The notes under the pieces were generated by a model that searched no databases, was not told where the DNA came from, and saw nothing but the letters and a program-made list of their open reading frames with translations. 64,000 bases of DNA, taken from positions 186,001 through 250,000 of the forward strand of contig KE159799.1 in assembly GCA_000403495.2 (NCBI GenBank), read 5' to 3'. Source of the DNA: Lachnospiraceae bacterium 10-1. GTDB lineage: Bacteria > Bacillota > Clostridia > Lachnospirales > Lachnospiraceae. Positions 6,195 through 49,152 of this stretch are shown here, piece by piece (positions within the stretch are counted from its first letter, which is position 1; every line of letters begins with the position of its first letter). The position numbers were made by a program, and so were the translations under genes.

Positions 6195-6467
6195 AAGTAA
6201 GAAAAGCAGCCCTGTATGGGCTGCTTTTCTTCTGTCTGACAGGCAAACCGGCAGAATATGCCGCTTCCTGTTTTCATATCCCCAAAATGCCGGTTCCTGC
6301 CTTTTGACTCCTAGCCAAGCTAGGTGGGTAACCGCAATCTGTACTTTTGCCTTCCCTTCCAATCCTCAAAAGCGAGTGAGGGCTTGACAGCCGTCAGACA
6401 ATTTAGGAATCCCGTTGAAAGTATCTGTAGGTTCAAAACTAACAGGAGTTGTCGTACATTTCAGGTT
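6195..6467 (-). ncRNA. Structured small RNA with own promoter and terminator, possibly 6S RNA
   Basis: A strong promoter (6502-6474) and an intrinsic terminator (6230-6200) on the minus strand delimit a transcript of roughly 270 nt with no credible ORF. Hairpins visible in the DNA include 6310-6324 (cctagc-caa-gctagg), 6364-6381 (cctca/tgagg), 6385-6396 (tgac-agcc-gtca) and 6249-6263 (cggca/tgccg). The 5' part (CTCCTGTTAGTTTTGAACC) resembles my recollection of Firmicute 6S RNA leaders, so SsrS is my best guess. It does not match tmRNA, SRP RNA or RNase P RNA signatures. The existence of an RNA is fairly well supported; its family is not. Confidence 0.55.
6200..6230 (-). terminator. Intrinsic terminator of the small RNA
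   Basis: A perfect hairpin (agaaaagcagccc-tgtat-gggctgcttttct) is followed on the minus strand by a T-rich run. The symmetrical A and T flanks could also let it work from the other side. Confidence 0.8.
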
Positions 6468-6473
6468 ATTTTT

Positions 6474-33816: not shown

Positions 33817-35241
33817 TCATTCAAATTTAAATTTACTAACAGATACCTTTTCTTTCTTTTCTTTATAAGAAACTGCCAAAATTGTAAAAATCCAATATAC
33901 CGGCAATATACTTATACTTACCCTAAAAAATAGAAGCTGAACTAAAAAAACACTTGCAATTAGGACCAGAATACTCGTAATTGGCTTATCCAGCCTTAAA
34001 TTTTTCCTGATCTCTGTAATCAATAAAACGCACACTGTCAAAACAAGCAGGCTTCCTATTACTCCAAACTGTTCAAAGCATAAATAGAAAGCACTCTTCC
34101 CCTGATATGCTTCATTTACCAAAGGAATTGCAAACCCTTTCACTACCGCCATTCCAAAACTATCAGGAAGATTGCTCCAACAATTTCCTCCCAATATGAT
34201 TCCTACAAATATAATGCTGGTCATTCTAGCCAAAAACTGATAACCCCGCCGCATTTTTCTCATAACCAGTCGTCTTAAATCCACACCTTCCGGTATCCTG
34301 TTCCAATATTTAAAAAAGAAAAAGCCTCCGATTACCACCAATAATTCCAGGTAAACACTTTGCTCTATGTCATAATGTATATCTACAAGAAACATCTTTG
34401 TATAATTTGTGAACAAACTCATATTACACAGCATAAACAAAAAAATAAAAAACATCTGCATATCTTTTTTTACCAGTTCTGCTGTAGGACGCTCAATTAA
34501 TGGAATTACAAGAAACACCATTATCATAATCCATATGCTTATTCTGCTTTGATTTACAAATAAAACTAAAAATCCAATCACCAATACACTTATGTAAAAG
34601 AAAGACCGGAGCCTGTCTTTGCATTTCAAGTACTGCCAAATCCCTATGATACAGACAAGTATCGTATAAGAAGCAATCCCTTCCTTGTCCTTAAGCAAAA
34701 CCGTTGCTACAGATTCTGCCCCATCTCCGCAAAAATATTTCATCAGCAATAAAGCAAATACCACCAGTGCTGAATAGCATAATGTATCCAAATAATATAC
34801 TTTAAACTCTGGTTTTGATAATAGCAAAAAAAATATTGCGCTCAAAGCCAGTATTGTCATTTCGTATTCATAGCTTACCAGATTTTTTTCGCTGGTAATT
34901 ATTATCTTATATATGATTTTGATAAATACATAAAATGTCAGTGCAGTTATCGCGAATCCCAGCCTGTTTCTATAAAAATGAAATGACCACTCCCCTGATC
35001 TTATCTGTAAAAAGCAGTACAAAAGTACACCTAATGTGCATAATGTCAGAATTAAATGTTGGATTCTAAAGCTGCCTACATTAACTTCAAATAATAAAAG
35101 CGGATAAATTCCTATTATAAAACTGATCAATATGTGTATTGAAATCTCTGCCCTGTTTTTTCCTGTTTGATTTTTCACTTTTTTCTTCTTATATGAATTT
35201 TCTTTTTTCCGGCTTATTTGATACCATTTTAAATTTTCCAT
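33817..35241 (-). CDS. O-antigen polymerase/ligase-like membrane protein
   Basis: The product has 474 aa with about 11-12 hydrophobic segments and a large loop between late helices (about residues 330-400), the Wzy/WaaL-like layout. No conserved short motif is certain, as usual for this family. Position after the flippase and transferases supports a polysaccharide polymerase. Its ribosome site (GGGAG, ten bases before the ATG) lies in the 3' arm of the hairpin at 35246-35295. Composition is AT-rich like the island. Confidence 0.7.
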   Translation of the reverse strand: MENLKWYQISRKKENSYKKKKVKNQTGKNRAEISIHILISFIIGIYPLLLFEVNVGSFRIQHLILTLCTLGVLLYCFLQIRSGEWSFHFYRNRLGFAITALTFYVFIKIIYKIIITSEKNLVSYEYEMTILALSAIFFLLLSKPEFKVYYLDTLCYSALVVFALLLMKYFCGDGAESVATVLLKDKEGIASYTILVCIIGIWQYLKCKDRLRSFFYISVLVIGFLVLFVNQSRISIWIMIMVFLVIPLIERPTAELVKKDMQMFFIFLFMLCNMSLFTNYTKMFLVDIHYDIEQSVYLELLVVIGGFFFFKYWNRIPEGVDLRRLVMRKMRRGYQFLARMTSIIFVGIILGGNCWSNLPDSFGMAVVKGFAIPLVNEAYQGKSAFYLCFEQFGVIGSLLVLTVCVLLITEIRKNLRLDKPITSILVLIASVFLVQLLFFRVSISILPVYWIFTILAVSYKEKKEKVSVSKFKFE

Positions 35242-35245
35242 ATAA

Positions 35246-35295
35246 TTAAAACTCCCAATATAAGATTTCTTCTTATCTTATACAAGGAGTTTTTC
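35246..35295 (-). terminator. Hairpin at left end of cassette A
   Basis: On the minus strand AACTCC with GTATAAGAT pairs back to ATCTTATAT with GGGAGTT, followed by TTAATT. It lies just downstream of the coiled-coil gene and just upstream of the polymerase start, where its 3' arm includes the ribosome site. Part of it (35274-35287) repeats inverted at 36029-36042. Confidence 0.65.
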
Positions 35296-35301
35296 TTTAA
35301 T

Positions 35302-35769
35302 TTACTGCACTTTCTTTAACTGTTCGCTGTGGCTTATCACTACCTGCTTTAAAACACTGATATCCATATCCATTCTATCTATCTGTTCCGCCCGTTCCAA
35401 GTACCTGTCTGATGTATCAATATAGCATTTCTCAATCGTACTCAGTCTTGGAATTACGTTGTTTTCCAACTGTACAACTTTAACATAAGTCATGTCATCT
35501 TCCAGTTTTTCTACTGATGCCTCCAACCTGGACGTGCGCTCGTCTAATTTTTTCACCGAGATTTCTAAGTTATCTAACTTAATGTTAATCGGCTTTAATT
35601 TCTCATCAAACTTCTGATCCAATTTCTTGTTCAATTTCTCTTCCAGTTTCTTGTCCAATTTTTCTTCCAGTTTCTCTTCCAGTTTCTTGTCCAATTTTTC
35701 TTCCAGTTTCTCTTCCAGTTTCCTGTCCAGCAAGTCTTCTATTGCTGCAAGCATTTCTCTGTCTACCAT
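35302..35769 (-). CDS. Coiled-coil protein A with Lys/Leu/Glu repeats
   Basis: The product has 155 aa, soluble and highly charged. Residues 14-60 are a repeated KLEEKLEEKLDK pattern, encoded by two identical 36-bp tandem units plus partial ones (about 35630-35730). The second half is predicted coiled coil and includes VQLENNVIPRLSTIE and RYLERAEQID, shared with the protein at 45728-46027. AGGAGG before the ATG supports the start. No catalytic motif or membrane segment is visible. It lies with its own leader and end repeats between the flippase and the polymerase genes. I recognise it only as a repeated Lachnospiraceae-type hypothetical. Confidence 0.8.
   Translation of the reverse strand: MVDREMLAAIEDLLDRKLEEKLEEKLDKKLEEKLEEKLDKKLEEKLNKKLDQKFDEKLKPINIKLDNLEISVKKLDERTSRLEASVEKLEDDMTYVKVVQLENNVIPRLSTIEKCYIDTSDRYLERAEQIDRMDMDISVLKQVVISHSEQLKKVQ
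35641..35712. repeat. Two identical 36-bp tandem units inside coiled-coil gene A
   Basis: 35641-35676 and 35677-35712 are identical, with partial copies on each side. Each unit encodes 12 residues, so gain or loss of units changes coil length without changing frame. Confidence 0.9.
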
Positions 35770-36065
35770 TTTTCATCCTCCTGTGATCCGAATAAGCGAA
35801 ATCTTTCTTTTCGCCTATTACAAGTATTTTAATTGTATGAATCTTTGACGAAAAGCCAGGATATCGGATAACCGATAATGCACTAAGAAATTCAGAATCT
35901 TTATGTGCGTGATTTAATTCATACATTTACTATAACACAATCACATTATAATCACAAGAAGATTTTACAAAAATACCAAGCCTTTTTAAAACAATCCTTT
36001 TATGATATTTTTAGAAGCTTTCTGCTTCCCTTGTATAAGATATGAAGTTTTCAAAGTGCTATATG
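35770..36065 (-). promoter_or_regulatory. Leader region of coiled-coil gene A (conserved hairpin element)
   Basis: No gene is needed to explain this stretch. It holds a 25-base segment at 35833-35857 that matches 22 of 25 positions with 46091-46115. Next to it is a hairpin (tatcgg-ataa-ccgata, about 35863-35878). A GCAC/GTGC pairing encloses it. At the far end, 36029-36042 is an inverted copy of the sequence at 35274-35287. A short frame reads AFRQRFIQ here, but stops soon after. Confidence 0.6.
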
Positions 36066-37529
36066 TCAAGTTCTTTCTCTAGATAATGAAGCAATACTCC
36101 TCTGTATCATTTCTATTATTTCCTGTACAAAAATTTCTTTCATTAGAAGCAGGCTAAGCAAATAAATACTACTAAAACAAATGGCTGATATCAATAAAAT
36201 CCAAAAACAACCAGCCTCCAATTTCAAAACCCATATAGATGCAATTGCAGCAACTGCTGTTGAAATAATAAATTTCCATAAATTTATATTACAAAACAGC
36301 TTTTTAAATATATCCAAGTCAGAAAAATATTGATAAACAAATACTGCTATCTCAGCTACCATTGTTCCAATGGCGGCGCCAGCGGAAGAATATCTGGGAA
36401 TTAATATCATATTTAACCCAAAGTCTATTACAGCACCCACAATCGTTGAAGCCAATACCTTACGTTCTTTTCCCATTGGAACTAAAATCTGAATACCCAT
36501 AAGATTGGTCAATCCTATAAAAAGTAATGTAGGCATTATTAACTGCATTGGGAAAATGGCTCCTTCATATGCAGTTCCTGCCAACAACAAAATAACCGGT
36601 CGTGCAAACATAGTAAAATATACCAACATAGGAATTGAAATAAACAGGATAAAACGAATAGCCTTAACCGAAAGATTCTTAAATTTTTCATTCTCCTGTT
36701 TCTCCAAATAAGCTGTCACTCTTGGTAATAGCACTGCCCCTAACGAAGTTACAATGCTAAGTAACATATTCTTTATTTTTACTGCTGCATTATAATAGCC
36801 CACATCCACGTCCGTTTTTATAAATCCAAGCATAACAGTATCCAATTGTAAATAAACCGTTGTAGCACATGACATGGCAAAGAAAACAAAGATTGGTTTC
36901 ATATGTTTTTTCAAGTCAAGTTTAAAACGTTTTTGAAAATCAACCAGTTTATGGAGATAAATAAAGTTTAGGATATTAGAAGCAGATGATGCAAAAATGG
37001 ATATTGCTCCATAAATAATATAATCCTCCTGTTTATGTACTAAAAAAAACATAGTGGCTAACGCAATAGTCTTAAAAAAAATGGAACGCCATGTAATATA
37101 AGAATACATTTCCAGCGCTTTAAAAACCCACTCGGCTCCCAAAGTAGTAAGTAAAATAGATGCACTTGTAACAATCAACATTTTTTTTTCTTCTCGAAAA
37201 CGTGGAACACAAAAAAGCGATAAGGCAAAAAGTATGTATGCTATTATGCACATGATAATATTAATCAATAAAATTTCCTGTACATTCTTGTTAAACTCTT
37301 CTTGGTCATCTCTCACCTTTGCACATGCCCTGATTCCATAAATCGGAATTCCCAGCTGCGCAACCAGCACAAAATAACTTACTATAGAAGTAGCAAAAGA
37401 TACTTTTCCTGTTCCAGCAGGTAGAAGAATTCTCGAAATATAAGGAAAAGTAATTAACGGAAACATATAAGAGGACATCGTTAAAACAATATTCATTATG
37501 AAATTATAAAAAATGGAATGCTGTTTCAA
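36066..37529 (-). CDS. Polysaccharide flippase (Wzx-like, MATE/PST fold)
   Basis: The product has 487 aa with about 12-14 membrane helices. It opens with YNFIMNIVLTMSSYMFPLITFPYISRIL, typical of RfbX/Wzx transporters, and contains FPMQLIMPTLLFIGLTNLMGIQILVP in the second half. It should flip lipid-linked oligosaccharide repeats across the membrane for polymerisation. A TTG start at 37529 is supported by AGAGG nine bases before. It lies 25 bases after the GT-B-like gene. Confidence 0.9.
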   Translation of the reverse strand: MKQHSIFYNFIMNIVLTMSSYMFPLITFPYISRILLPAGTGKVSFATSIVSYFVLVAQLGIPIYGIRACAKVRDDQEEFNKNVQEILLINIIMCIIAYILFALSLFCVPRFREEKKMLIVTSASILLTTLGAEWVFKALEMYSYITWRSIFFKTIALATMFFLVHKQEDYIIYGAISIFASSASNILNFIYLHKLVDFQKRFKLDLKKHMKPIFVFFAMSCATTVYLQLDTVMLGFIKTDVDVGYYNAAVKIKNMLLSIVTSLGAVLLPRVTAYLEKQENEKFKNLSVKAIRFILFISIPMLVYFTMFARPVILLLAGTAYEGAIFPMQLIMPTLLFIGLTNLMGIQILVPMGKERKVLASTIVGAVIDFGLNMILIPRYSSAGAAIGTMVAEIAVFVYQYFSDLDIFKKLFCNINLWKFIISTAVAAIASIWVLKLEAGCFWILLISAICFSSIYLLSLLLMKEIFVQEIIEMIQRSIASLSRERT

Positions 37530-37554
37530 TTTCGTTGTCCTCTCATTTATATCC

Positions 37555-38553
37555 TCAAATTATAAAAATATTTTTAACATCATTTATAAACTGGCTTTTT
37601 TCATTTAATATTATTTGTCTATATTGCTCAAAATCATTAATAATCTCTTCATACTTTTCCAAGCAATATCTAATACAGTGAATTATCGCTCGCTGTTCCA
37701 CTATCTTTTCATCAAATTTATATTTATCCAAAATGGGAACATCCTTATTAAATTTTGCCGCCCCGCGTTTCCCAGTAATTATGCAACAACCACTTATTGC
37801 TGCTTCACGAGGAAACCGATCTTTTCCTGGATGATTTCCAAAGTCTACATACACCTTACTATTATTTAAATACTGATAAATCTCTTCATTTGTCATCCCT
37901 TGCAATGGTATCCACTCCAAATCAGGTGTAGCTTTTATAAGCTTCCTAGTGAATTTATAGCCTTTCGCCGGATTATATAGAATTACATCATTTCTTACAC
38001 TTTTATCTTCTTTTACATAAGATTTGGTATAACAATCATTAATGTAATCTGATAAATATATAATTTTTTCTTCATCAAAATTATATTTTCGTTTTATATA
38101 ATCAATGGCATAATATGACTGGCAAAGATGGAAGTCAGCTTTTAAAACAAATTTTGTTTTATCCTTTATATCCCCTGTTATCATATTATATAAAGCATTT
38201 TTAAGACTACATAACTCTTTTCTGGACCTAAAATCATTGTGTATAGCAAAATTGTCAACACTTAACCACCAAATAGCAGTCATGGCATTGCTGAATTTAT
38301 TTACATACTCTACCTTTGTTTCAGGAATAATAATAAGATTTTCAGCGTCATCTTCTATTTCATCCAGTCTCTTCACTGGTGTTTCTATATAGTTTTTAAA
38401 CGCTTCTGGCATAGACAAATCATTCCCTATGTAAACAATATATGCCATCTGTCCTTCTCTGTTTAAACGAAACACCAATTGATGCAAAAGTTCTGTTCCA
38501 CCTGTTTTAAGTCCACCGATGCAAAGCACGTATATTTTAGAATACTTACTCAT
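37555..38553 (-). CDS. Putative GT-B-fold glycosyltransferase
   Basis: The product has 332 aa. An early glycine motif (GGLKTGGTELLHQL) and a C-terminal half with DVILYNPAKGYKFTRKLI, then WIPLQGMTNEEIYQYLNNSKVYVDFGNHPGKDRFPREAAISGCCIITG, fit the donor-binding half of a GT4-like transferase. This is close to proteins annotated simply as glycosyltransferases in capsule loci. The acceptor and sugar are unknown. The ATG at 38553 has GGGAGGAG before it. The gene is AT-rich. Confidence 0.72.
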   Translation of the reverse strand: MSKYSKIYVLCIGGLKTGGTELLHQLVFRLNREGQMAYIVYIGNDLSMPEAFKNYIETPVKRLDEIEDDAENLIIIPETKVEYVNKFSNAMTAIWWLSVDNFAIHNDFRSRKELCSLKNALYNMITGDIKDKTKFVLKADFHLCQSYYAIDYIKRKYNFDEEKIIYLSDYINDCYTKSYVKEDKSVRNDVILYNPAKGYKFTRKLIKATPDLEWIPLQGMTNEEIYQYLNNSKVYVDFGNHPGKDRFPREAAISGCCIITGKRGAAKFNKDVPILDKYKFDEKIVEQRAIIHCIRYCLEKYEEIINDFEQYRQIILNEKSQFINDVKNIFII

Positions 38554-38558
38554 TGTTC

Positions 38559-40442
38559 CTACTCCTCCCACTCATCATAATAATTCTTCAAATAGTGGAA
38601 TCTTTCATTATTATTTACGATTATGAATTCGTTTTCATCCATCAAAAAGATATAATAATCATCTAATTTAAATCCTATTTTATTCTTCAACTTACCTATA
38701 TCATTTCCAATTATTATCATATCTTCTTCTTCCACTTGAGGATAATCTGATATAACAACTTTATCCCTCATAACGAACTGCATCAAAAACTGTGGTCCAA
38801 ATATTTCATTACAGTAATACACATGTTCAATATTATCTAAAATTTTATCTTCTGTTTTTAGCAATTCATATGTAGCATTCACAGAACCGTAATAATTTGC
38901 CGAGTGGGAATAAGGTTTATCCCAGTTTATAACAGAATAACTATATTGATAAATCTGAATTAGGCACATTAAAATATAAAAAAATTTTATATATTTTTTT
39001 CTAATTAATAAATAATACATACTAAATATAATTAATGAAATTACTGTCGCTTGCAAATAATAAGCCCCATTTTGCATATTCTCAGAATATTTAGCTCCTG
39101 TAAATGAAAGCGGTGCAAAATAACCAAACCAGTCCCCACTATACTTCTCTTTAGCCAGCGTTATTTGTAAACTATACGCATATGTAAATTTACATACAAA
39201 CAGTTGTATTATAATTACACCCCAAAAAATATCCCTTCTTATTCCATATTTTTTCAGAATTAATAAAGCAATAAAAATAATCGGTCCAAAACCATTACCA
39301 ATGTATCTTAAATAAAAATATCCCCTTGATAAATCATTACCATAATTTCTAACCATATCAGCAGAAGAAATCCAAAGAATACTTAATCCGATAAGTGAAA
39401 ATACAAAAACTATCAATAAAAATACAGCAGGCAATATCCATATGTTTTTACTAAATAAACCAACATTTATTTGTCGTTTTTTTATAATTTTTACATTCAT
39501 TACTGCAAACATACATATAAATACTATTATTATTCCTTGATAATATGTAAAGGTAATCCAAATATTTGAAAAAAATAAACTAAAAAAATTAGTAATTCCA
39601 TTCACATTAAAAAAATTATTTTTTAATATACCTGCAACATTACCAGCAACCCCCGAAACAGTGTTATTTAATACAGTATTTTGATATATATCAGAAAAAT
39701 AAACAGTATTTTGTATAACTTTTTTTGCATAATTTACGACAAAAAAAAGTAGAAAATAAATGCTAAAGCTAAGAGTATAATTAACCAATGCTCTTCTATA
39801 AATTAAATGAAATATTATGCAAACTATTAGCACTGCCAATACATAAATATAAGCTCTTGTATGTACAGTTAATGAATATCCCAATATAAAAAAAAGAAAC
39901 AATGAATATGCATTCCGTTTTTTTTTGCTTATTTTATCTTGTAAAGTCGTCAATAAATATACTATTGTCCATGCAATCAATATAAGCATAGGCTCATTAT
40001 CAATATTAGTTGCTCTTGTTGGGGCAGCTATTACTGATATTGTACTTATTAATATAGCCTCTGTTATGTTATATTCCTCTGAATACTTTTTTAAAAGCGA
40101 AAAACATATAAACACAGGAATTGTTCGCAAAACAGCTCCTCCTGCCAACAATACCTGATATAAAATCAAAGGATTCTTAACAATATAAAACAAGGGAGCA
40201 AAAATTATAGTTGTGCCAAACCCGTAATAGCTATTCGCTTGAGAAAGAACATAGCTCCAATCATATCCACATAATTTTGCTGCAACGGAAAGAGCACCTA
40301 TTTCATCCGGCAAACTTCGTGGAACAATCTCATTTACATTTAAAATAATTTGAAAAATTAATACAGCGATAAAAGTTCCTATCTCCGCTATATACCATTT
40401 ATAATTATCATTAAACTTTTTCTCATGCTTTATAAATGACAT
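38559..40442 (-). CDS. GT-C-like multi-spanning membrane protein
   Basis: The product has 627 aa with about 12-13 helices and a C-terminal soluble tail of about 110 residues. The first loop has LPDEIGALSVAAKLCGYDWSYV and NSYYGFGTT, closely parallel to the protein at 47392-49152 (PDEFGYWASAAEKIGYDWSEV). The acidic residues in this first loop resemble the DE/DD sites of lipid-sugar-dependent GT-C transferases. It may glycosylate a lipid-linked glycan outside the membrane. Codon use is strongly AT-biased. Confidence 0.65.
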   Translation of the reverse strand: MSFIKHEKKFNDNYKWYIAEIGTFIAVLIFQIILNVNEIVPRSLPDEIGALSVAAKLCGYDWSYVLSQANSYYGFGTTIIFAPLFYIVKNPLILYQVLLAGGAVLRTIPVFICFSLLKKYSEEYNITEAILISTISVIAAPTRATNIDNEPMLILIAWTIVYLLTTLQDKISKKKRNAYSLFLFFILGYSLTVHTRAYIYVLAVLIVCIIFHLIYRRALVNYTLSFSIYFLLFFVVNYAKKVIQNTVYFSDIYQNTVLNNTVSGVAGNVAGILKNNFFNVNGITNFFSLFFSNIWITFTYYQGIIIVFICMFAVMNVKIIKKRQINVGLFSKNIWILPAVFLLIVFVFSLIGLSILWISSADMVRNYGNDLSRGYFYLRYIGNGFGPIIFIALLILKKYGIRRDIFWGVIIIQLFVCKFTYAYSLQITLAKEKYSGDWFGYFAPLSFTGAKYSENMQNGAYYLQATVISLIIFSMYYLLIRKKYIKFFYILMCLIQIYQYSYSVINWDKPYSHSANYYGSVNATYELLKTEDKILDNIEHVYYCNEIFGPQFLMQFVMRDKVVISDYPQVEEEDMIIIGNDIGKLKNKIGFKLDDYYIFLMDENEFIIVNNNERFHYLKNYYDEWEE

Positions 40443-40481
40443 AAAGATATACCATCCGCTTTCTATTTATAGGTATTTCAT

Positions 40482-41600
40482 CTAATGCACATACCTTTTG
40501 TAAATATCTGTTATATGAATTTTATTAAATAATTTTCTTAGAGTAACAAATATATATTCATAGTAAAAAGCCATTAGATATTTTTTTTTTGCTACAAGCT
40601 TCAAAATTCCCCTTCCTAAATAAAACGATTTGTCTAAATAATCTATCATTCTTATAGCATCTGGTGTCAATCTACTGGAAACAATACCTTCCAAATATAT
40701 TTTTCTATCTTTACGCCTTCTTTTTGCAATAAGTTCATATCTATATATTTCAATTATTTCATTGCAGGCTTCACCCGCCTTATATGTTTCTGCAATATTA
40801 TCCAATCCTTTTTTCTTAAGTTCATTTATAATATAGTCACTAACCTGCTCCCATTTCTTATCTATATTTACAATATATTTTATATTACATGATTCTGAAT
40901 CATAATTTGTTCTCCAATAATAACCAATTTTACTTATTGTGCATACCCTATTTGAATTTAAAAAAAGATCAAACCGCATGAGAAGATCGTCTTCAAAATT
41001 TACAAACCTTTTGAATTTAATTCCATTATTTTCTAATAATAATTTTTTAAAAACAATATTCCAAATTGTTGATCTTGACCGTTTACCATTTTCCAACTCC
41101 GTATAAAATCCCATTAAAATGCTTGGAAGAATTAACGCTTCTGGAATATTTTTATTTTCAATCACATTGTCATTTTCATATTCGTATATATATGAATCCG
41201 CCTTAATATTTCTAAAAAATTTTGCAGAGCTTGCAATACACAAATCACTTCCGGTTTCTTCTATCTTAGTTATAGCTTCTTCATAAAAATCTGCTGAAAT
41301 CAAATCATCCTGATCTACAAAAGCAATATAATATCCTTTCGCTTCATTTAACCCTCTATTTCGCGCTCCGACAATTCCTGTATTTTCTTGCTGGATATAC
41401 CTTATTCTATTATCCTGCAATGCATACCATCTACAAATAGTGGGGCTGCTATCACTTGAACCATCATCAATCAAAATAATATCCATATTTTTATATGTTG
41501 AATCCAAAACAGAATTCAACATATCTTTTAAATATTTTTCTCCATTGTAAACCGGAATGATTACACTTAACATTTTTTGTTCATCTTTTCTTTTTTTCAT
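40482..41600 (-). CDS. Family 2 glycosyltransferase
   Basis: The product has 372 aa. The N-terminal GT-A domain reads VIIPVYNGEKYLKDMLNSVL, ILIDDGSSDSSPTIC and, as the DxD motif, YYIAFVDQDDLIS. The C-terminal 140 residues are not assigned. It probably adds a sugar to the growing repeat unit on undecaprenyl phosphate at the inner face. GGGAG precedes the ATG. It lies between the GT-C-like and HAD genes in one direction, AT-rich. Confidence 0.9.
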   Translation of the reverse strand: MKKRKDEQKMLSVIIPVYNGEKYLKDMLNSVLDSTYKNMDIILIDDGSSDSSPTICRWYALQDNRIRYIQQENTGIVGARNRGLNEAKGYYIAFVDQDDLISADFYEEAITKIEETGSDLCIASSAKFFRNIKADSYIYEYENDNVIENKNIPEALILPSILMGFYTELENGKRSRSTIWNIVFKKLLLENNGIKFKRFVNFEDDLLMRFDLFLNSNRVCTISKIGYYWRTNYDSESCNIKYIVNIDKKWEQVSDYIINELKKKGLDNIAETYKAGEACNEIIEIYRYELIAKRRRKDRKIYLEGIVSSRLTPDAIRMIDYLDKSFYLGRGILKLVAKKKYLMAFYYEYIFVTLRKLFNKIHITDIYKRYVH

Positions 41601-41612
41601 AATAAATACTCC

Positions 41613-43475
41613 CTATAGTTGATCAGAATCCACTATGTCATATATTCTCATATAGTTAAGATTTAAGCGCAAAATTCTCTTTAACTGTGCTAATTTCCAA
41701 TTTACTTTATTTGTATCCTGCTTTATTCTACCAGGGTGCTTCAAATAATACCCTGTACCATGTATTTCACCATTTTCAATAAATCTGGCCACTTCCCACG
41801 CGTCAAACAATGTTGGCTTGATTCCTATACGACAAAAACCATAAAAGTAAACATCAGGTTCATAGTATTTGATGTCAATAGTTTGAAGCATATTTAATTG
41901 TTTAACTCTATCCAACGCACTTTTTTGAAGAATATTTAAAATTTTATCTTTTTCCATATTAGAATGATTGTTTTCCAAAATAGGAATTATTATCTCTTTT
42001 TCTTTCTTATAACATTTTGTAGATCCTTCATCATGAGAAAAGAACGCTTCGACAATTGCTGTAGCTCTCACTTCATTAATCTGATTTTGTATATGTTCTT
42101 CTCCGAAATAAAGGTAAGCGCTCATCTCCTGGCTTTCAAAATACCTGCACTTATCCCGAATTCCAATATAATATCCATGCACTTTTGCATTTATTCCAGC
42201 CGCACTAATAATTTTTTCAATTGCATTCTGTAAATTTCCAAACCATCCAGTATCAACAATAGCCACATTCCCCTCAAATCCTTCCTGATTAAGGTATTGT
42301 ATCAGCAAATCATATTCTTTTTTGGAATTTTCTTCAATCGTCTGCTCTAAGTATTTGTATACATTCAACAATTCAATATTTGTAAGTAATTCATCCTTTC
42401 CATAAACATAATTTGAATTTTCAATAATTTTCTCTATTTTTTTCTCATAATCCTCATACTTAATTCCAAAATTACTCACAAAGTCCTTAATCGTGTAATG
42501 TTTTTTCCAATACATTATTTCACACCGTTCTTTATAACCATCGTACAAATATAATGATGGTACTATCAACGCCCTTCGTGAAACATATAAATATGAACTC
42601 TTTTTTATCAATTCTTCAGACGCCATTATTTCCATGGCTTTTTGCATAATAAAACCATCTCTTGATAAATAAAACACATGGTTATATTCATCAACTTCAA
42701 GTTCTTTAAGCAACCATTTGGTATACCCAAATAAAAAATTTCCCAATGAATATTTTCCTACTTGTTCCCAATAAAAATTTCTTGAAAATTTCCGAGGCAT
42801 GTCTCCATAAAAAATATTATATGGATAAGTGTAATTTTCTTTGTATCGTTTGGCTGGAGAATAATGAAATGCAGCAATACCTTTCTTTTTGGCATGAAGA
42901 TAATCACTTATAAAATTATCACCTATATGCAGAATTTTTTTCGGCATAACACCAGTTTCATCAATTAACTCTTGATAAAGAGTTCCTGTAGATTTTCTTT
43001 TATTTCTATCTGATGATAAAAATAATTGTTCATAGTCGGCACATCGATTTTTCTGTAATATTTTTTCAATAGTTTCTTTATCAAGATACATATCAGAACA
43101 CATTACCACTCTCTTTTTCTGATTTAAGCATTCTTGATATATTTCAAGCATCTCAAAATTTACTACTGATAATTCAATCTCAATATCTTTTTCTAACTGA
43201 CAAACTATATCTTTTCTATTTATATCTAAATATTTATATATTTCATTTAATAAAATTTCTTCTTTATCAGAAAAACTAATTGCCTGACGCTCTGCTATTA
43301 TTCTCTTTTGAGCAAAGCCAATATAGTCATTACCATATCTTTCATATAGTACTTTTTCTATCTCGAAAAAAATATTATGCGGATTTCCAACACAACGATA
43401 GATCAGGGTATCAAATATATCAAAAGATATTACATCATACCTATTCAATTTATCTTTAACATTGTTTACATTCAT
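41613..43475 (-). CDS. HAD-superfamily domain protein with large C-terminal domain (glycan locus)
   Basis: The product has 620 aa. Residues about 10-215 show HAD motifs: VISFDIFDTLIYR (nucleophile and acid Asp), VVMCSDMYLD, Lys in RKSTGTLYQ and ILHIGDNFISDYLHAKK. The remaining 400 residues (HVFYLSRDGFIMQKAMEIM; VAIVDTGWFGNLQNAI) match a type I recognise from capsule loci but cannot name functionally. SRDG and DTGW are likely active-site loops. It may handle a phosphosugar or phosphate-linked substituent. It lies inside the transferase string with a normal ribosome site. Confidence 0.75.
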   Translation of the reverse strand: MNVNNVKDKLNRYDVISFDIFDTLIYRCVGNPHNIFFEIEKVLYERYGNDYIGFAQKRIIAERQAISFSDKEEILLNEIYKYLDINRKDIVCQLEKDIEIELSVVNFEMLEIYQECLNQKKRVVMCSDMYLDKETIEKILQKNRCADYEQLFLSSDRNKRKSTGTLYQELIDETGVMPKKILHIGDNFISDYLHAKKKGIAAFHYSPAKRYKENYTYPYNIFYGDMPRKFSRNFYWEQVGKYSLGNFLFGYTKWLLKELEVDEYNHVFYLSRDGFIMQKAMEIMASEELIKKSSYLYVSRRALIVPSLYLYDGYKERCEIMYWKKHYTIKDFVSNFGIKYEDYEKKIEKIIENSNYVYGKDELLTNIELLNVYKYLEQTIEENSKKEYDLLIQYLNQEGFEGNVAIVDTGWFGNLQNAIEKIISAAGINAKVHGYYIGIRDKCRYFESQEMSAYLYFGEEHIQNQINEVRATAIVEAFFSHDEGSTKCYKKEKEIIIPILENNHSNMEKDKILNILQKSALDRVKQLNMLQTIDIKYYEPDVYFYGFCRIGIKPTLFDAWEVARFIENGEIHGTGYYLKHPGRIKQDTNKVNWKLAQLKRILRLNLNYMRIYDIVDSDQL

Positions 43476-43518
43476 TTGTTATTTACCTTTTTAAATACTT
43501 AAGTTACAAGCCATACAA

Positions 43519-44538
43519 TTATTTTTCTGCATTGAATGTTGGAACTATTTTACTAACCAGAGTGTAAATAATATTATCACTGCTATCATAGTATAAATTT
43601 CCCAAAGTTGATAAAAATCTTTTTCCAAATAAACTTGAAAAAGCTATTATTCTGATATATTTCTTTGCTTTTCTATCAAAAAAAACTTTTCTACGATATA
43701 AGCAGATTTGCTTCCAACATGGCATTAAATAAGTATTATTCTCTTTTGCAAATGGAATCTCTCTAAATGTCTGTGCTGCCGCCAATAAGCACCTTGCATC
43801 TGCCGCTCTGACAAACTCTGGATATTCCTCTATTATAAATTTCCTCATATTCTGAGAAATTTCAATTCTTTGCATTTTTTTTGAATTGAAGTTTTCTGCC
43901 ATAATGCTGCCATTTCTCTGAACATAATAGTATTTTTGTAAATTACTGACTATAATTTTGGAAGATCTATCAAGAAGTTTACATATAACAGCCATATCTT
44001 CATAATAATATCCTACCGGATATCTTATTTCTGCAAACAATTCACTTTTATATATTTTACAATGAGCACTTGCTGTGAACTTTCTTTGATAAAGATAATT
44101 TTCAATAGCAGATGCTTTGTCTAAGACTTCTATCTTTTCTTTATAATCATCCAGCCTATCCTGTGTATTATATATTTTTTTAAATTGACAAACAGCAATA
44201 TCAGCATTGTTAACAGATACTAAGCCATATAAATATTCTATATAATCTTCTGTCACATAATCATCAGAATCTACACATACTACGTATTCTCCACACATCA
44301 TATCTAGTGCCGCATTTCTGGCATCACTCAGGCCACCATTTTTTTTGTGTAATACTATTATCCTTTCATCTTGTTTAGCTAATTCATCACATAACTCTCC
44401 TGAGCCATCAGTTGATCCATCATCTATCAAAAATATCTCACAATTCGTATAGGTCTGATTAATAACAGATTTTACACACTTTGATAAATATTCTTTTACA
44501 TTATAAACAGGAATAATTATACTGATCAGCTTATCCAT
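43519..44538 (-). CDS. Family 2 glycosyltransferase
   Basis: The product has 339 aa. The GT-A core reads ISIIIPVYNVKEYLSKCVKSVINQTYTNCEIFLIDDGSTDGSG, then KNGGLSDARNAALD and the DSDDYVTEDY metal site. The C-terminal region is variable. It belongs with typical capsule-repeat transferases of the CpsI/EpsJ kind. It is nine bases after the next GT2 gene and shares its AT-rich composition. Confidence 0.92.
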   Translation of the reverse strand: MDKLISIIIPVYNVKEYLSKCVKSVINQTYTNCEIFLIDDGSTDGSGELCDELAKQDERIIVLHKKNGGLSDARNAALDMMCGEYVVCVDSDDYVTEDYIEYLYGLVSVNNADIAVCQFKKIYNTQDRLDDYKEKIEVLDKASAIENYLYQRKFTASAHCKIYKSELFAEIRYPVGYYYEDMAVICKLLDRSSKIIVSNLQKYYYVQRNGSIMAENFNSKKMQRIEISQNMRKFIIEEYPEFVRAADARCLLAAAQTFREIPFAKENNTYLMPCWKQICLYRRKVFFDRKAKKYIRIIAFSSLFGKRFLSTLGNLYYDSSDNIIYTLVSKIVPTFNAEK

Positions 44539-44547
44539 TTTTTTCCC

Positions 44548-45591
44548 TTACTTTACTAATCTATAAAAAATTTTTGTAAAATTCTCTAACTTTCCAAAAT
44601 AGCACATCCATGAAAATACCCATACTCCTAATTTCTGTGAAAGCAATAATTCATTATATTCAAAAAATCTAGTATATTTATTTCTTCTAGCGTATGGAAA
44701 GTATTTGTTTGCAATTTTTTGAAAAGATTGTGCAATTACAGTTGCGTTTTCTACATTTGATTTCTTGTCTGTATTGCTTAAATATTCTCTTTTCCTAATA
44801 CGCACAAACAACAAATATGTAAAAAGACTTAGCACTGTAAATTCAAATAATTGTCTGTCTAACCGTTCATCCCTATGTCTTAAAATCTTTTCAATACAAT
44901 TATCCCATTCCGTTAATGGTAAATCTGCTGTTTTTATTACCTTGCTCGTAGTACTCCCCTCATGTACTACTTGATAGTATCCCGCATAATCTAAAAAATA
45001 GCTCTTTTCCGTTAAAAAAAATGCCTGTAGATTAAATGAATTATCTTCATATGTTTTTCCGATTGGAAAAACAATATGATTTTCTTTTATATACGACGTC
45101 AAATATATTTTCCCAGAAATATTAAAACGTCTCATCAAACATTTCCCATCATACGATTTATAAATTATGCTATCTATAATTTCCCCATCTTCTTTAACTT
45201 TATATTGCCCACTACATACCACATCGCACATATGTTTCTCTGCTACAGAAACTAAGGTTAATAAGTAATTCTGATCAATATAATCATCTGCATCCAAAAA
45301 CATAATATATTTTCCTTTGGAAATATCTATACCGCAATTTCTCGCTGATGCCTGTCCACCATTTTTTTTATTAACACTAACCACTTTTTCTTTGAAGTTA
45401 TCAATATATTTATTGATGATTTCAACAGTACCATCTGTACTTCCATCATTTATGATAACTATTTCAAAATTCTGATATGTCTGTTGTAATATTGAATGAA
45501 TACATTTATCTAAACGTTCTTCTTCGTTATATGCAGCAATAACAACTGAAACCATTGGAAAACGTTTCTGTACTTCTAATTTAGCATTCAT
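44548..45591 (-). CDS. Family 2 glycosyltransferase
   Basis: The product has 347 aa. The core motifs are VSVVIAAYNEEERLDKCIHSILQQTYQNFEIVIINDGSTDGT, KNGGQASARNCGID and FLDADDYID. The C-terminal part is divergent and probably sets acceptor choice. It is the first gene after cassette B in transcription order. AAGGTAGATATAA precedes the ATG. Confidence 0.92.
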   Translation of the reverse strand: MNAKLEVQKRFPMVSVVIAAYNEEERLDKCIHSILQQTYQNFEIVIINDGSTDGTVEIINKYIDNFKEKVVSVNKKNGGQASARNCGIDISKGKYIMFLDADDYIDQNYLLTLVSVAEKHMCDVVCSGQYKVKEDGEIIDSIIYKSYDGKCLMRRFNISGKIYLTSYIKENHIVFPIGKTYEDNSFNLQAFFLTEKSYFLDYAGYYQVVHEGSTTSKVIKTADLPLTEWDNCIEKILRHRDERLDRQLFEFTVLSLFTYLLFVRIRKREYLSNTDKKSNVENATVIAQSFQKIANKYFPYARRNKYTRFFEYNELLLSQKLGVWVFSWMCYFGKLENFTKIFYRLVK

Positions 45592-45655
45592 TTATATCTA
45601 CCTTCCTATTCCATTAAAAAAATACTGATACAAAGTATCTCATTTCTCCACACAA

Positions 45656-45705
45656 AAAACTCCCAACATAAGACAATTTCATATCTTATATCAGGAGTTT
45701 CCTCT
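45656..45705 (-). terminator. Hairpin at left end of cassette B
   Basis: On the minus strand AACTCC, then ATAAGA, pairs with TCTTAT and GGGAGTT, followed by TTTTTG, about 30 bases after the stop of coiled-coil gene B. Its core, 45672-45696, recurs inverted at 46268-46292 with one mismatch in 25. Confidence 0.7.
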
Positions 45706-45727
45706 TTCATTTTATTATATTATTCCG

Positions 45728-46027
45728 TTATACTGAGATTCTGTTAAGTTTTTTGCTATGTTCTTCAAGAACAACTTTCATAACTTCAATATCTGAACTC
45801 ATGGCATCAATCTGCTCTGTCCTCTCCAGATATCTTTTGGCAGTATCCACATAATATGCTTCTATAGTGTTAAGCCTTGGTATCACATTATTTTCTAGCT
45901 GCACCGCTCTGACATACTGCACGTCAGATTCCAGTTTACCCAACCTGTCATAAACTGGCCCCAGTTTCTCATCCAGTTTCTGATCCATCATTTCTGACAT
46001 TGCCATTAACATTTCCTGATCTACCAT
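45728..46027 (-). CDS. Coiled-coil protein B
   Basis: The product has 99 aa and starts MVDQEMLMAMSEMMDQKLDEKL; AAGGAGGATAAAGAA stands before the ATG at 46027. The frame is open upstream to 46144, where it reads AFRQRFMQ, but that part is the leader element. The C-terminal half (VQLENNVIPRLNTIE; RYLERTEQID) matches protein A at 35302-35769. It lacks A's long repeat and keeps only one KLDEKL unit. It has no membrane segment and no catalytic signature. It is flanked by inverted repeats and stands between the GT2/GT-C pair and the AT-rich transferase block. Confidence 0.78.
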   Translation of the reverse strand: MVDQEMLMAMSEMMDQKLDEKLGPVYDRLGKLESDVQYVRAVQLENNVIPRLNTIEAYYVDTAKRYLERTEQIDAMSSDIEVMKVVLEEHSKKLNRISV

Positions 46028-46343
46028 TTCTTTATCCTCCTTTTGCTGTGTGCAGGCGGAACACACGCTTTCCGCCCTCCTTTTTATCTGTTGCATGAAT
46101 CTCTGGCGAAAAGCCGGACACCGTTTCAGCGGTGTATCGCACATGAGAAGTTAGAATAAATTTGTGCGAGAATAGATTTCATGTTCCTAATTTACCATAT
46201 TTTTAAAAGAAGCGCAAGGAAAACAAAAAAAAACTGTTTTTTCGTTCAAATGATTTTATGCAAAAAATCCTGATATAAAATATGAAATTGTCAAAGTACG
46301 GGATTTTTTATTTAAAACAAACATTTATATAAAAACTGAACCT
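46028..46343 (-). promoter_or_regulatory. Leader region of coiled-coil gene B (conserved hairpin element)
   Basis: It contains 46091-46115, matching 35833-35857 at 22 of 25 bases, and a hairpin acaccg-tttcag-cggtgt at about 46118-46135. A wider pairing of TGTGCG with CGCACA lies around 46137-46175. The right end (46265-46306) is a hairpin with poly-T that probably ends the GT2 transcript (stop at 46344) and doubles as the inverted end repeat. No independent gene is evident. Confidence 0.6.
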
Positions 46344-47390
46344 CTACAGAGAAACGCTCACGCGTTCAAAGGCATCTTCTTCCCTGTTGGACTCTCCCAC
46401 GATCCGGTAGGTCTTCACAGTCTCCTTTTCCAGCTTTTGCTGCATGTAAATTGCATCATACTCTGTTTTTCTTGCATGATACTGGGTATCCTGAAGCAGT
46501 TTTCTATTAGCAGCAATCACATCTGCCACCAGCCCTATCATAAAGGTAAGAAATCCCATAATAATTAATGTACATGCCAGAATAAGAGACTGAACATGTC
46601 CGCCTGACTGTCCGATCGTCATATAGTACAAAAAGCGAAACCCAATCAAAAGCCCCACCGCTATCGGTGCAACAGCCAGATAACTAAAACACTTTAATGG
46701 CTTGTACATCATATATGCCCGAAGAATTGTCAGCATACTCTTTTTTACATATCCCCAAATACTGTTAAACAATCTGGAAGGCCGGAGTTCTTCGTTAGTT
46801 CTGACTGGTACACTGGTGATTGCAATTTTTTCTCTCCCTGCCTGCACAATGGTTTCCAATGTATATGTATAATCATTTACCACATTCAGCCGCATAGCAG
46901 CATCCCTTGAATATGCGCGAAACCCACTGGGTGCATCCGGAATATTTGTATTGGATGCTTTACGCACCACCCAGCTCCCAAAATGCTGCAGCTTCTTTTT
47001 AATAAAAGAAAAATGTTCGGTCTGATCAATTGGCCTTGCACCAATAACCATATCCGCCTTTCCTTCCAAAATCGGATGGATTAATGTTGCAATATCTTCT
47101 GCGCAGTATTGGTTATCTGCATCTGTGTTAACAATAATATCCGCACCGTTTCTAAGGCACCCATCGATTCCAGCCATAAAGCCTTTAGCCAGTCCTTTGT
47201 TTTGTTTAAAATTAACTATATGGTGAACACCCCACTTTTGGGCCACTTCCACTGTATTATCCCGGCTTCCATCATTGATGATCAAATATTCAATTTCATC
47301 AACACCTTCTAAATTCCGTGGCAAGTCGTTTAATGCAATTTCCAGTGTTTCTGCCTCGTTATAACAGGGAATTTGTATAATCAGCTTCAT
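46344..47390 (-). CDS. Membrane-bound family 2 glycosyltransferase (DPM1/GtrB-like)
   Basis: The product has 348 aa. The GT-A domain (residues 1-220) has IQIPCYNEAETLEIAL, YLIINDGSRDNT, GLAKGFMAGIDG and NTDADNQY, and is followed by two membrane helices (about 240-262 and 274-300) and a cytoplasmic tail. Such enzymes usually make undecaprenyl- or dolichyl-phosphate sugars, which GT-C proteins use. The adjacent upstream gene is a GT-C-like protein, so the two form a plausible donor-transferase pair. The upstream gene ends two bases before this ATG. The start could also be 47402. Confidence 0.9.
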   Translation of the reverse strand: MKLIIQIPCYNEAETLEIALNDLPRNLEGVDEIEYLIINDGSRDNTVEVAQKWGVHHIVNFKQNKGLAKGFMAGIDGCLRNGADIIVNTDADNQYCAEDIATLIHPILEGKADMVIGARPIDQTEHFSFIKKKLQHFGSWVVRKASNTNIPDAPSGFRAYSRDAAMRLNVVNDYTYTLETIVQAGREKIAITSVPVRTNEELRPSRLFNSIWGYVKKSMLTILRAYMMYKPLKCFSYLAVAPIAVGLLIGFRFLYYMTIGQSGGHVQSLILACTLIIMGFLTFMIGLVADVIAANRKLLQDTQYHARKTEYDAIYMQQKLEKETVKTYRIVGESNREEDAFERVSVSL

Positions 47391-47391
47391 C

Positions 47392-49152
47392 TTAACCCGC
47401 ATCCTTTCCCTCTGTACTATAGAATAAATAAAAAGTATTTGCCCTTATGCACTCATCAAACATATTGTCTAATTGATTTTTATATTTTGTATCAATATGT
47501 GTAATTACAAACACATCGCTTATTTTCATTTTAATCTCATCAATATCACCTTCTGAAATAACTTCTATGGCTCTTTTCCCCAACTGCATTTGAAGAAAAT
47601 CTATGTATTGGTGCGCTCCTTCATCCAGATAAACAATTTTGTCTCCGGCTTCTTCTTTATCAATAATCTCTTCAGAAATTGTTAAATCCATAAAATTTGA
47701 ACTGTTAACACGATAAGTATAGTGATTACTGATCTGTAGTCCTGCAGTAATTTCAAGAACTATAATTCCCGTCAGCATCCAGACTAAATTTTCTTTTTTT
47801 TCTGAAAGCCAAACAAAAAAAGCAACTAAAAGCATCACAAAAAAGCCAAGTATCCAGGTATCCTGAAAAAAGCTGTATATATCTAAATTATCTTCTTTCA
47901 AAAGATAACTAATGCCAGCCACCATATATCCTCTAAGACCGCTCAATTCCCTTGCTTCTATCACACTTAAAAGCATTGGAAGCATTAATCCTGTCCCCAT
48001 CCCCAGAAGCAGGGTGCCCCTAAAAAGCCACCCGCTTTTCAGCATAGCAATAATGCCAATTATCAAAAAAACCGGCACAAGAAATTCATCATACCTTCCA
48101 TAAATTAATGCATCTATTGTTCCAACAGGATGCATATAAATGCTACAGATTAAAATTTCTCCAGCCATAGCCAGTGAAAGAAACAGAAACACCCATTCAA
48201 TAACCTCTATTTTTCTTTTTTTAAATAAGTGAAACAACAATAACCCACTTTTTTTTATTGTCCAGCCTATGCCCCAGTAAAATATTCCAAAGCTTGCAAG
48301 TCCCAGATAAAGAATCTTCCCGATTACTTCTTTCACAAATAGTCTCATTCCATAAGGCGAAATAATCTGCGTAAGCTTTCCCTTTTGCCCACCATAATCA
48401 TTTCCTGCCAAAACCTGACTGTCTGCACTTGAAAAAACCTGCGCAATTGTATTTTGCTTCAATACCCCTGCCAGTATTGCAAACAACAGTATGGCTCCTA
48501 TAAAAACTAACACTATTTTTGTCTTTGGGTGCTCTGAAACTGCCCAGAGAACCAGTGTAATGCCGCAGGCAATTAATACTCCTGCCGTTCTCATATGCAC
48601 ACAGTAACTATACGCAAGGGATGCTGTCAAAAAAAATGCTGTAACTATATTGGGTTTCTGCATAAAACAGACAAATAAATATGTAATCAGTACAAAAAGA
48701 AACATAAGCAGTGCTTCTGTCATGGTCATTTGCATATTAAAAATCCATACCGGATAAAAAACTGCAATACCGCCAATAAATACCTGCATTTTCCTTTCGA
48801 TTTCTGGAAATAGACGTTTTATAATTCCTAAAATTAAAAATATACCACTACACATCAGCAACATATTGACAGCTACAGCAACTCTATATGCCATCACACC
48901 ATCATCAAAAAGATATAGTATAGGCAATAAAATATAACTATAGCCAAAGGAATAATAGGATCCAAGTGATGTCACTTCTGACCAGTCATATCCTATTTTT
49001 TCTGCTGCACTTGCCCAGTATCCAAACTCATCCGGCACCATTGTAAACCCACAAATTTTACCGATTCCATACTGAAAAATTCCAAATATAATCAGAATAA
49101 TGAGCAATAAATAAATATTTATTTTTTTCTTACAACTTGTAATATTTCTCAT
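47392..49152 (-). CDS. GT-C-like multi-spanning membrane protein
   Basis: The product has 586 aa with about 12 helices and an extracytoplasmic C-terminal tail. The first loop PDEFGYWASAAEKIGYDWSEVTSLGSYYSFGYSYI resembles the 38559-40442 protein, and its Asp-Glu pair is a likely catalytic site. With the downstream polyprenyl-phosphate transferase it may modify surface glycans outside the membrane. The ribosome site before the ATG is weak. Only about 30 bases separate it from the terminator hairpin at 49181-49216, which leaves little room for its own promoter. Confidence 0.7.
   Translation of the reverse strand: MRNITSCKKKINIYLLLIILIIFGIFQYGIGKICGFTMVPDEFGYWASAAEKIGYDWSEVTSLGSYYSFGYSYILLPILYLFDDGVMAYRVAVAVNMLLMCSGIFLILGIIKRLFPEIERKMQVFIGGIAVFYPVWIFNMQMTMTEALLMFLFVLITYLFVCFMQKPNIVTAFFLTASLAYSYCVHMRTAGVLIACGITLVLWAVSEHPKTKIVLVFIGAILLFAILAGVLKQNTIAQVFSSADSQVLAGNDYGGQKGKLTQIISPYGMRLFVKEVIGKILYLGLASFGIFYWGIGWTIKKSGLLLFHLFKKRKIEVIEWVFLFLSLAMAGEILICSIYMHPVGTIDALIYGRYDEFLVPVFLIIGIIAMLKSGWLFRGTLLLGMGTGLMLPMLLSVIEARELSGLRGYMVAGISYLLKEDNLDIYSFFQDTWILGFFVMLLVAFFVWLSEKKENLVWMLTGIIVLEITAGLQISNHYTYRVNSSNFMDLTISEEIIDKEEAGDKIVYLDEGAHQYIDFLQMQLGKRAIEVISEGDIDEIKMKISDVFVITHIDTKYKNQLDNMFDECIRANTFYLFYSTEGKDAG

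Follow-up and report, generated by a model that had tools for sequence, protein, structure and literature searches.

The question raised by this locus is what two small units with coiled-coil genes are doing in a glycan gene island. The window analyzed here is the whole 64,000-nucleotide stretch of contig KE159799.1 of Lachnospiraceae bacterium 10-1 (positions 186,001 to 250,000, or G000:C1:186001-250000; host genome G000, 4.57 Mb). The two units, cassettes A and B, are placed in this island at meeting points of conserved and variable genes. The initial annotation suggested that they may be small mobile or recombination modules that mark or exchange the variable glycan genes, or alternatively that the coil protein may act in surface glycan assembly. 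We lean, with some reserve, towards the view that A and B belong to a family of small insertion cassettes, each with one gene, that resemble non-autonomous transposons and can exchange their cargo. The units have matched ends and exchangeable cargo, are present or absent at orthologous junctions, and share a common left edge where copies occur in one genome.

Matched and unequal ends of cassettes A and B

Both units are built in the same order of upstream end, leader, coil gene and downstream end, with these features:

Cassette A: 35246..36062, minus strand; upstream end at the right and downstream terminator end at the left in plus-strand coordinates; inverted repeat 35269-35287 / 36029-36047
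Upstream end of A: 36029..36059, plus strand; outward reading CCTTGTATAAGATATGAAGTTTTCAAAGTGC; hardly any fold alone
Leader of A: 35828..35932, minus strand; predicted four-arm junction, closing stem 35825-35842 / 35917-35934
Coiled-coil gene A: 35302..35769, minus strand; 155 amino acids, 12-nt (four-amino-acid) tandem repeats
Downstream end of A: 35250..35294, minus strand; hairpin terminator, minimum free energy -20.0 kcal/mol, z -6.4
Cassette B: 45656..46306, minus strand; from inverted repeat 45655-45700 / 46264-46309 and pattern searches
Upstream end of B: 46268..46299, plus strand; outward reading TCCTGATATAAAATATGAAATTGTCAAAGTAC; weak fold
Leader of B: 46086..46188, minus strand; predicted four-arm junction
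Coiled-coil gene B: 45728..46027, minus strand; 99 amino acids, one long helix in the structure model (residues 4-97; pLDDT 90.9, pTM 0.44)
Downstream end of B: 45655..45703, minus strand; strong hairpin terminator with T tract, minimum free energy -26.4 kcal/mol, z -10.3

The coil genes of A and B are homologous, as first proposed, with proteins 53% identical over 85 amino acids. The 25-nt end repeat of B, checked on the sequence, matches its inverted copy at 24 of 25 bases, and the ungapped pair extends over 46 nt at 80%. In A, the inverted ends are separated by 741 nt and are 95% complementary over 19 nt, which include the 14 perfect bases noticed earlier. Best inverted-repeat scores were 16 for A and 23 for B, compared with maxima of 13 and 12 in 30 Markov-1 sequences for each. 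A 23-nt core of the B end has exactly two matches in the 64 kb (≤3 mismatches; mean of 0 in 100 shuffles). The likeness of the A and B ends around the motif tcaaagt also held up and fits a broader end consensus of approximately TCAARGTRC that is present in relatives.

One correction to the initial annotation is that the two ends of a unit cannot be treated as equivalent. Strong hairpins form at the downstream ends. The upstream ends are inverted copies of one hairpin arm plus loop, and their folding is no stronger than that of shuffled sequences (z -1.2 for B, at -6.0 kcal/mol, and z +0.4 for A, at -2.3 kcal/mol). This asymmetry was found in all nine A/B-type elements folded, with downstream ends at -20.0 to -30.7 kcal/mol and upstream ends at 0 to -6.0 kcal/mol; the seven elements other than A and B gave -21.6 to -30.7 and 0 to -5.0 kcal/mol, respectively, and a tenth, G316:C74, was left out of the downstream-end folding. 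It had been considered that the similarity of the ends might reflect only a shared terminator structure. Since the upstream copy repeats the sequence yet hardly folds, the ends are more than that, and selection for termination alone would not retain the upstream copy. The two ends of one unit also evolve together: ends match at 20.6 of 23 positions within elements vs 17.3 of 23 between elements (permutation p 0.00035; seven elements, one per lineage).

Other cargo between the same ends

A search of 37 genomes of the genus with the B-type end pattern (≤3 mismatches) gave 16 matches at nine sites in six genomes, and a reversed-pattern control gave none. The cargo is a coil gene in cassette B and G319:C31, an Rpn-like gene in G316:C11 (twice) and G316:C20, a Uma2 gene in G313:C13 and a gene for a 91-amino-acid Rpn-tail-like protein in G319:C33; the end in G322:C141 lies at a contig edge. 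The ninth site, in G327, was rejected as a chance match inside a LysR-like open reading frame (ORF). The A-type end was found only in G000 and G300 (2/37). Matches of the Rpn-like cargo to TIGR01784 (E 7e-7, 1.2e-8 and 1.3e-4) are all below the curated cut-off, and the G316:C11 protein has no Pfam match at E 0.1. The Uma2 domain in G313 is over the Pfam cut-off (PF05685, 101.3 bits; cut-off 27) and matches PDC-S03 of PADLOC at E 4.3e-50. One further cassette of G316, at the junction after the GT2 gene (J1, below), has an end related to the B type in its own matched pair. Its cargo carries AAA-ATPase_like and PDDEXK_9 domains, both over the Pfam cut-off (PF09820, 144.3 bits; PF08011, 67.7 bits), and this protein had no match in PADLOC. 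Rpn and Uma2, two of the three companion families of the coil protein, are reported or listed anti-phage candidates.

Twelve of 13 B-type end places lie among surface-polysaccharide or cell-wall genes and the remaining one is a chance match inside a gene; all eight real sites in the genus are in such surroundings (several gene names assigned by reading). With the B-type 25-mer (≤3 mismatches), a search so strict that it passed over the copy in the window itself, 397 family genomes yielded four places in three genomes, all beside polysaccharide or cell-wall genes named by reading, such as NeuA/NeuB and Glf. Among 92 neighbor proteins from 15 end sites, Pfam families included Glycos_transf_2 (12), LytR_cpsA_psr (3), UDPG_MGDP_dh (2) and WbsX (2); these sites are not independent, several being in two conserved islands, and correspond to approximately eight separate loci.

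A second end type, T1 (CCTTGATAATTSAATAGACTTTACAC), was matched 26 times in 12 of 299 family genomes. The 25 paired T1 elements have the same design, with members of the coil C-terminal family in 12 and other small proteins in 13, some of which carry the coil N-terminal motif; the share of coil elements is biased because these 12 entered through coil searches. At least six of 13 T1 loci adjoin ArdC-like genes (L041, L050, L119, L183) or J-domain-like genes (L113, L181), names assigned by reading, and such neighbors are as in conjugative elements. It is conceivable, and we propose it tentatively, that all of these units form a new class of cargo-swapping cassettes with co-evolving inverted ends, one of them a terminator, carrying single genes that include anti-phage-linked nucleases, with the A/B type at polysaccharide junctions and T1 elsewhere.

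Some T1 loci have features of their own. In L041, L050, L113, L119 and L183 the cassette has a conserved promoter/leader-like segment on one side and, on the other, the start of the ArdC-like or J-domain-like gene; the cargo varies and both near flanks are alike. In G179:C13 (L182 1609-4232), T1 cassettes form an array of three whose small helical cargo differs; small ribbon-helix-helix-like genes lie between them on the opposite strand. A lone T1 end in L157 (G288:C21, at 1501, reverse complement) is placed directly before an alpha/beta-hydrolase-like gene, as if it were its promoter.

The coil gene itself is more widespread than the ends. Its C-terminal family was found in 38 of 299 family genomes and 15 of the 37 genus genomes, and its named carriers are mostly Lachnospiraceae. 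From 301 coil relatives in species genomes, 79 loci were kept, 72 of which had enough flank; eight of these pass the inverted-repeat threshold, seven convincingly, and the median score equals that of the control. The threshold was set at 95% of mismatched pairs, a control that can share T1 ends and is hence conservative. A later end scan added coil loci L060 and L061, in both of which two genes lie between the ends. We therefore rejected the coil gene as the defining part of the element, because most of the 72 testable homologue loci are without such ends. Homologues at random loci without end repeats, which had been set against a mobile or boundary role, are thus what we find for the coil gene. 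The ends behave differently: the B type is found again in glycan loci around other cargo. An A-like gene in G304 was likewise discarded as a clean occupied/empty pair, being located between the SH3 and amidase genes with no end repeats. Testable top-scoring PF12784 loci, examined as possible owners of the ends, gave no convincing inverted repeat (the ORF choice was crude and in some cases clearly wrong).

The suggested tie between coil homologues and glycan genes or end repeats was not borne out. Around end-less coil genes, no glycosyltransferase family was among the 25 commonest families (92 of 155 listed neighbors), so that any such family has at most two members. Annotated phages and plasmids had no match to the coil C-terminus, and a phage or plasmid origin was rejected on this basis; viral contigs contained two coil relatives, five stretches with a T1 end and none with a B-type end. 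Within 3 kb of the 79 coil loci, AAA genes occurred at three, Uma2 genes at two and Rpn genes at none (the Rpn profile was built from only seven seeds); the count for control loci was one of 46, itself the G316 J1 cassette. Coil genes with AAA or Uma2 neighbors were not accepted as functional pairs, given 3/79 and 2/79 loci. Two further arrangements of coil genes were observed: G076:C55 11682-13331 (L008) has four in tandem approximately 500 bp apart, with a gap of approximately 35 nt where read, and in L033 and L039 an Rpn-like C-terminal tail with repeated GLEQ/GIEQ units, recognized by reading the DNA, ends just before the coil gene.

Gain and loss at gene junctions

The upstream flank of cassette B allows the same position to be compared between genomes:

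GT2 gene: 46344..47402, minus strand; conserved flank of cassette B and junction J1, from orthologues and junction sequences

This gene has orthologues in 18 of the 37 genus genomes (85-90% identical in G316, G304 and G319), and the genes following it differ in the 14 genomes that are readable. At J1, the junction after the GT2 orthologue, G000 and G319 have a coil cassette, G316 has the AAA-ATPase/PDDEXK_9 cassette and G304 has a solo end (GAGAACCTTGACAATTTCCTTGTGTCAGGATTTTTT); the other ten readable genomes have no such end within approximately 230 nt. The genes after the J1 cassette are homologous in G316 and G319, by reading. In G299:C11 (L269) a long unrelated inverted repeat, GTGTGAAAAGAAAATCT...AGATTTTCTAAGTTTCACAC, occupies the cassette position just after the GT2 stop.

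At a second junction, J4, between a secreted-protein gene and a sugar-transferase gene, G316 has an Rpn-like cassette, G319 the 91-amino-acid cassette and G322 none, the G322 end being one gene further on at a contig edge. Each side is compared through a different genome pair. On the left, the flanks of G319 and G322 agree over 47 bp (87%), and this likeness extends to 5 nt from the end. On the right, the gene start is alike in G316 and G322; little sequence is left behind the cassette on the G319 contig. Where one genome has several copies, their common sequence begins at a single left edge (RYACCTTGAYAATT). Two Rpn-like copies in G316, 1.8 kb apart, are 95.7% and 98.8% identical over the first two blocks, and this identity begins no more than 6 nt from CCTTGAC. 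G336 has a copy in each of two polysaccharide loci; the two are 92.6% identical over 377 bp from ACCTTGACAATT on and have different flanks; one of them is cut by a contig end, and the whole Rpn-like gene is present only in the other.

These observations suggest a unit that would consist of an upstream inverted end, its own leader, one cargo gene and a downstream inverted end doubling as terminator. It would be gained and lost whole at gene junctions, the A/B end type inside surface-polysaccharide loci, and its cargo is interchangeable among coiled-coil protein, Rpn-like nuclease, Uma2 nuclease and AAA-ATPase/PDDEXK_9, with the coil protein as a passenger. A recombinase or transposase acting in trans could move the unit via its matched ends, and deletion between the ends could account for loss, with a solo end remaining as in G304. 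Alternatively, cargo nucleases could stimulate exchange by cutting cassette-free loci in the manner of homing enzymes. A predicted promoter and strong terminator of its own would make a position between genes of a long operon nearly cost-free. The ORFs of the cassettes read include a passenger gene and, by reading, no transposase. The initial idea of modules that mark or exchange glycan genes is thus partly sustained: the cassettes are separate, exchangeable insertions with defined ends at conserved/variable edges, but there is no sign that they exchange the glycan genes.

Several points weigh against insertion cassettes as the explanation. The coil gene is also present without ends (in G304 and at most of the 72 loci), MGYTKK-type Rpn genes occur without good inverted repeats outside glycan loci (G302:C94, G264:C108; G315 relatives likewise), and T1 cassettes show no tie to glycan loci. 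Several junctions share one conserved island, hence the number of events is small. Direct long-gap alignment of empty and occupied J4 gives no clean single gap, and models of the joined flanks are best when they keep TTGA or slightly more plus a T-rich tail. No target-site duplication was seen at J4 or in the duplicate copies, all genomes being compared at species level only. No transposase-bearing partner was seen among the places read in the 37 genus and up to 397 family genomes, which are a part of all places and were read without a transposase profile.

One could instead regard these as ordinary insulated genes, each with its own promoter and terminator, that travel between strains with recombining polysaccharide blocks and do not transpose; gene conversion, or selection for pairing between the ends in RNA, would then maintain the likeness of the inverted ends. 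Such a history would fit the missing transposase and target duplication, the lack of a clean gap at J4, and J1 being an edge where the downstream genes change too; for rpn genes elsewhere, recombination is the reported way of moving, and their ends vary (PMC10327210). We nevertheless think it rather unlikely, as copies in one genome have a common left edge in different flanks, unrelated cargo has similar ends, and J1 cargo differs although the upstream gene is the same and, between G316 and G319, the downstream gene is homologous as well. Another option is that the cassettes are derivatives of hairpin-ended, palindrome-associated single-strand transposons of the IS200/IS605 kind, with an HUH transposase elsewhere and CCTTGAY as retained target: there is a hairpin at one end, no target duplication, a short conserved sequence at one edge, and TTGA is retained at the empty J4 site. 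In the IS200/IS605 family, both ends must form a hairpin on one strand. Here one end is an inverted copy of the other and hairpins are strong only downstream, the upstream end hardly folding, and we consider this origin quite improbable.

The unequal ends bear also on a flipping mechanism, in which a site-specific recombinase would invert the cassette between its ends (phase variation). Each gene is indeed flanked by inverted repeats of 19-25 nt, but a strong hairpin arm lies 3' of the gene in 9/9 elements folded and the arms are not equivalent, which makes inversion barely credible. The last option is that the coil protein takes part in assembling the surface glycan and that the island retains it for that purpose; a role in assembly had also been offered by the initial annotation. 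Two paralogues in one glycan island and the presence of related genes at equivalent positions in G319 and G300 speak for it. Against this, the same junction can hold an unrelated nuclease gene or nothing, glycosyltransferases are missing from the 25 commonest families near coil genes elsewhere, the protein has no Pfam family above cut-off, and its model is a single helix. We found no evidence for such a role and regard it as very improbable.

Insertion cassettes, the reading we prefer, have relatives among known systems. Mobile insertion cassettes (MICs) and gene-bearing miniature inverted-repeat transposable elements (MITEs) are short and have matched inverted ends, one passenger gene and no transposase, and the A/B units are alike in all of these respects. 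Unlike in those systems, a parent insertion sequence with these ends and a target duplication were not found, the cargo swaps between families, the A/B type is concentrated in polysaccharide loci, and one end doubles as the gene's terminator. Moron-like insulated genes of phages and conjugative elements have their own promoter and terminator and are inserted between operon genes. The cassettes resemble them in predicted promoter, terminator and position, but have inverted ends, occupy chromosomal polysaccharide loci, and contain a coil C-terminus without a match in phage or plasmid records. Integron gene cassettes differ in having one attC each in direct order, compared with two inverted ends per unit here (no integrase search was made).

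Part of the cargo resembles rpn (YhgA-like, COG5464) genes, including their gain and loss as single genes. According to Zhong et al. (PMC10327210), rpn genes are anti-phage toxin-antitoxin systems with variable four-amino-acid repeats, are without identifiable inverted terminal repeats or target duplications, and have ends that vary. Unlike those rpn genes, several Rpn-like genes here have matched ends and a common left edge. Coil A has four-amino-acid repeats as rpn does, which is an analogy only. No description of such cassettes was found in the part of the literature searched, and we place them among the insertion cassettes that carry a gene and lack a transposase. As lone genes, Rpn, Uma2 and AAA/PDDEXK_9 are widespread, and for rpn no vehicle with defined ends was recognized (PMC10327210). 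If our reading is right, the cassette would be such a vehicle, directly testable, and would supply some Rpn-like nucleases with the mobile unit of defined ends that they are said to lack. The polysaccharide-junction end type would then form a layer of exchangeable genes, some of them defence-like, along the edges of variable regions in capsule-type surface clusters, which phages meet first, and the cassettes could serve as a marker for places of recombination in such loci.

Leader, promoter and neighboring genes

The leader shared by A and B, suggested in the initial annotation, is real and folds as a predicted four-arm junction (z -3.0 for B and -4.0 for A). It is common to A, B, G300, G304 and G319. 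Rfam gave no match over cut-off and, at E ≤ 1, one weak unrelated match. Only one base pair shows a two-sided change and the covariation score was reached by 39 of 500 shuffles, hence the predicted structure is plausible but not proven. MGYTKK-type Rpn genes (L145 1531-1662, L299 1883-2014) have a conserved 5' leader resembling a three-way junction, the end of which is CGGCATCTCGCCGGAAATTCAC; its terminal hairpin and closing stem resemble those of the coil leader, with homology unproven. Promoter scans found three candidates in B (2.5 in shuffles) and six in A (2.8 in shuffles), one of the latter with an extended -10.

All genes of the island are on the minus strand. Transcription runs from a 586-amino-acid membrane protein through the GT2 gene and cassette B to a block of transferases, a HAD protein and a flippase, and then through cassette A to a polymerase-like membrane protein, an SH3 protein, an amidase and TetR; the labels polymerase-like and TetR were assigned by reading sequences. 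The remaining features are:

Genes between the cassettes (flippase, transferases, HAD protein): 36066..45591, minus strand; different genes in the relatives read
Polymerase-like membrane protein gene: 33817..35241, minus strand; conserved flank of cassette A, followed by the SH3 and amidase genes, from gene order in G304 and G300

The order polymerase-like, SH3 and amidase is also present in G304. In G300 the SH3 and amidase order is kept and the polymerase-like frame looks broken. An SH3 domain was found in the SH3 protein of the window, and the polymerase-like membrane protein had no match in a Pfam search. A GGGAG hairpin arm of A (window 35241-35260) lies at Shine-Dalgarno distance before the ATG of the polymerase-like gene (35241), and by its position cassette A may provide a ribosome site for this gene. 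Elsewhere in the window, Rfam identified a T-box leader at 2559-2804 and a 6S RNA at 6276-6470, both on the minus strand.

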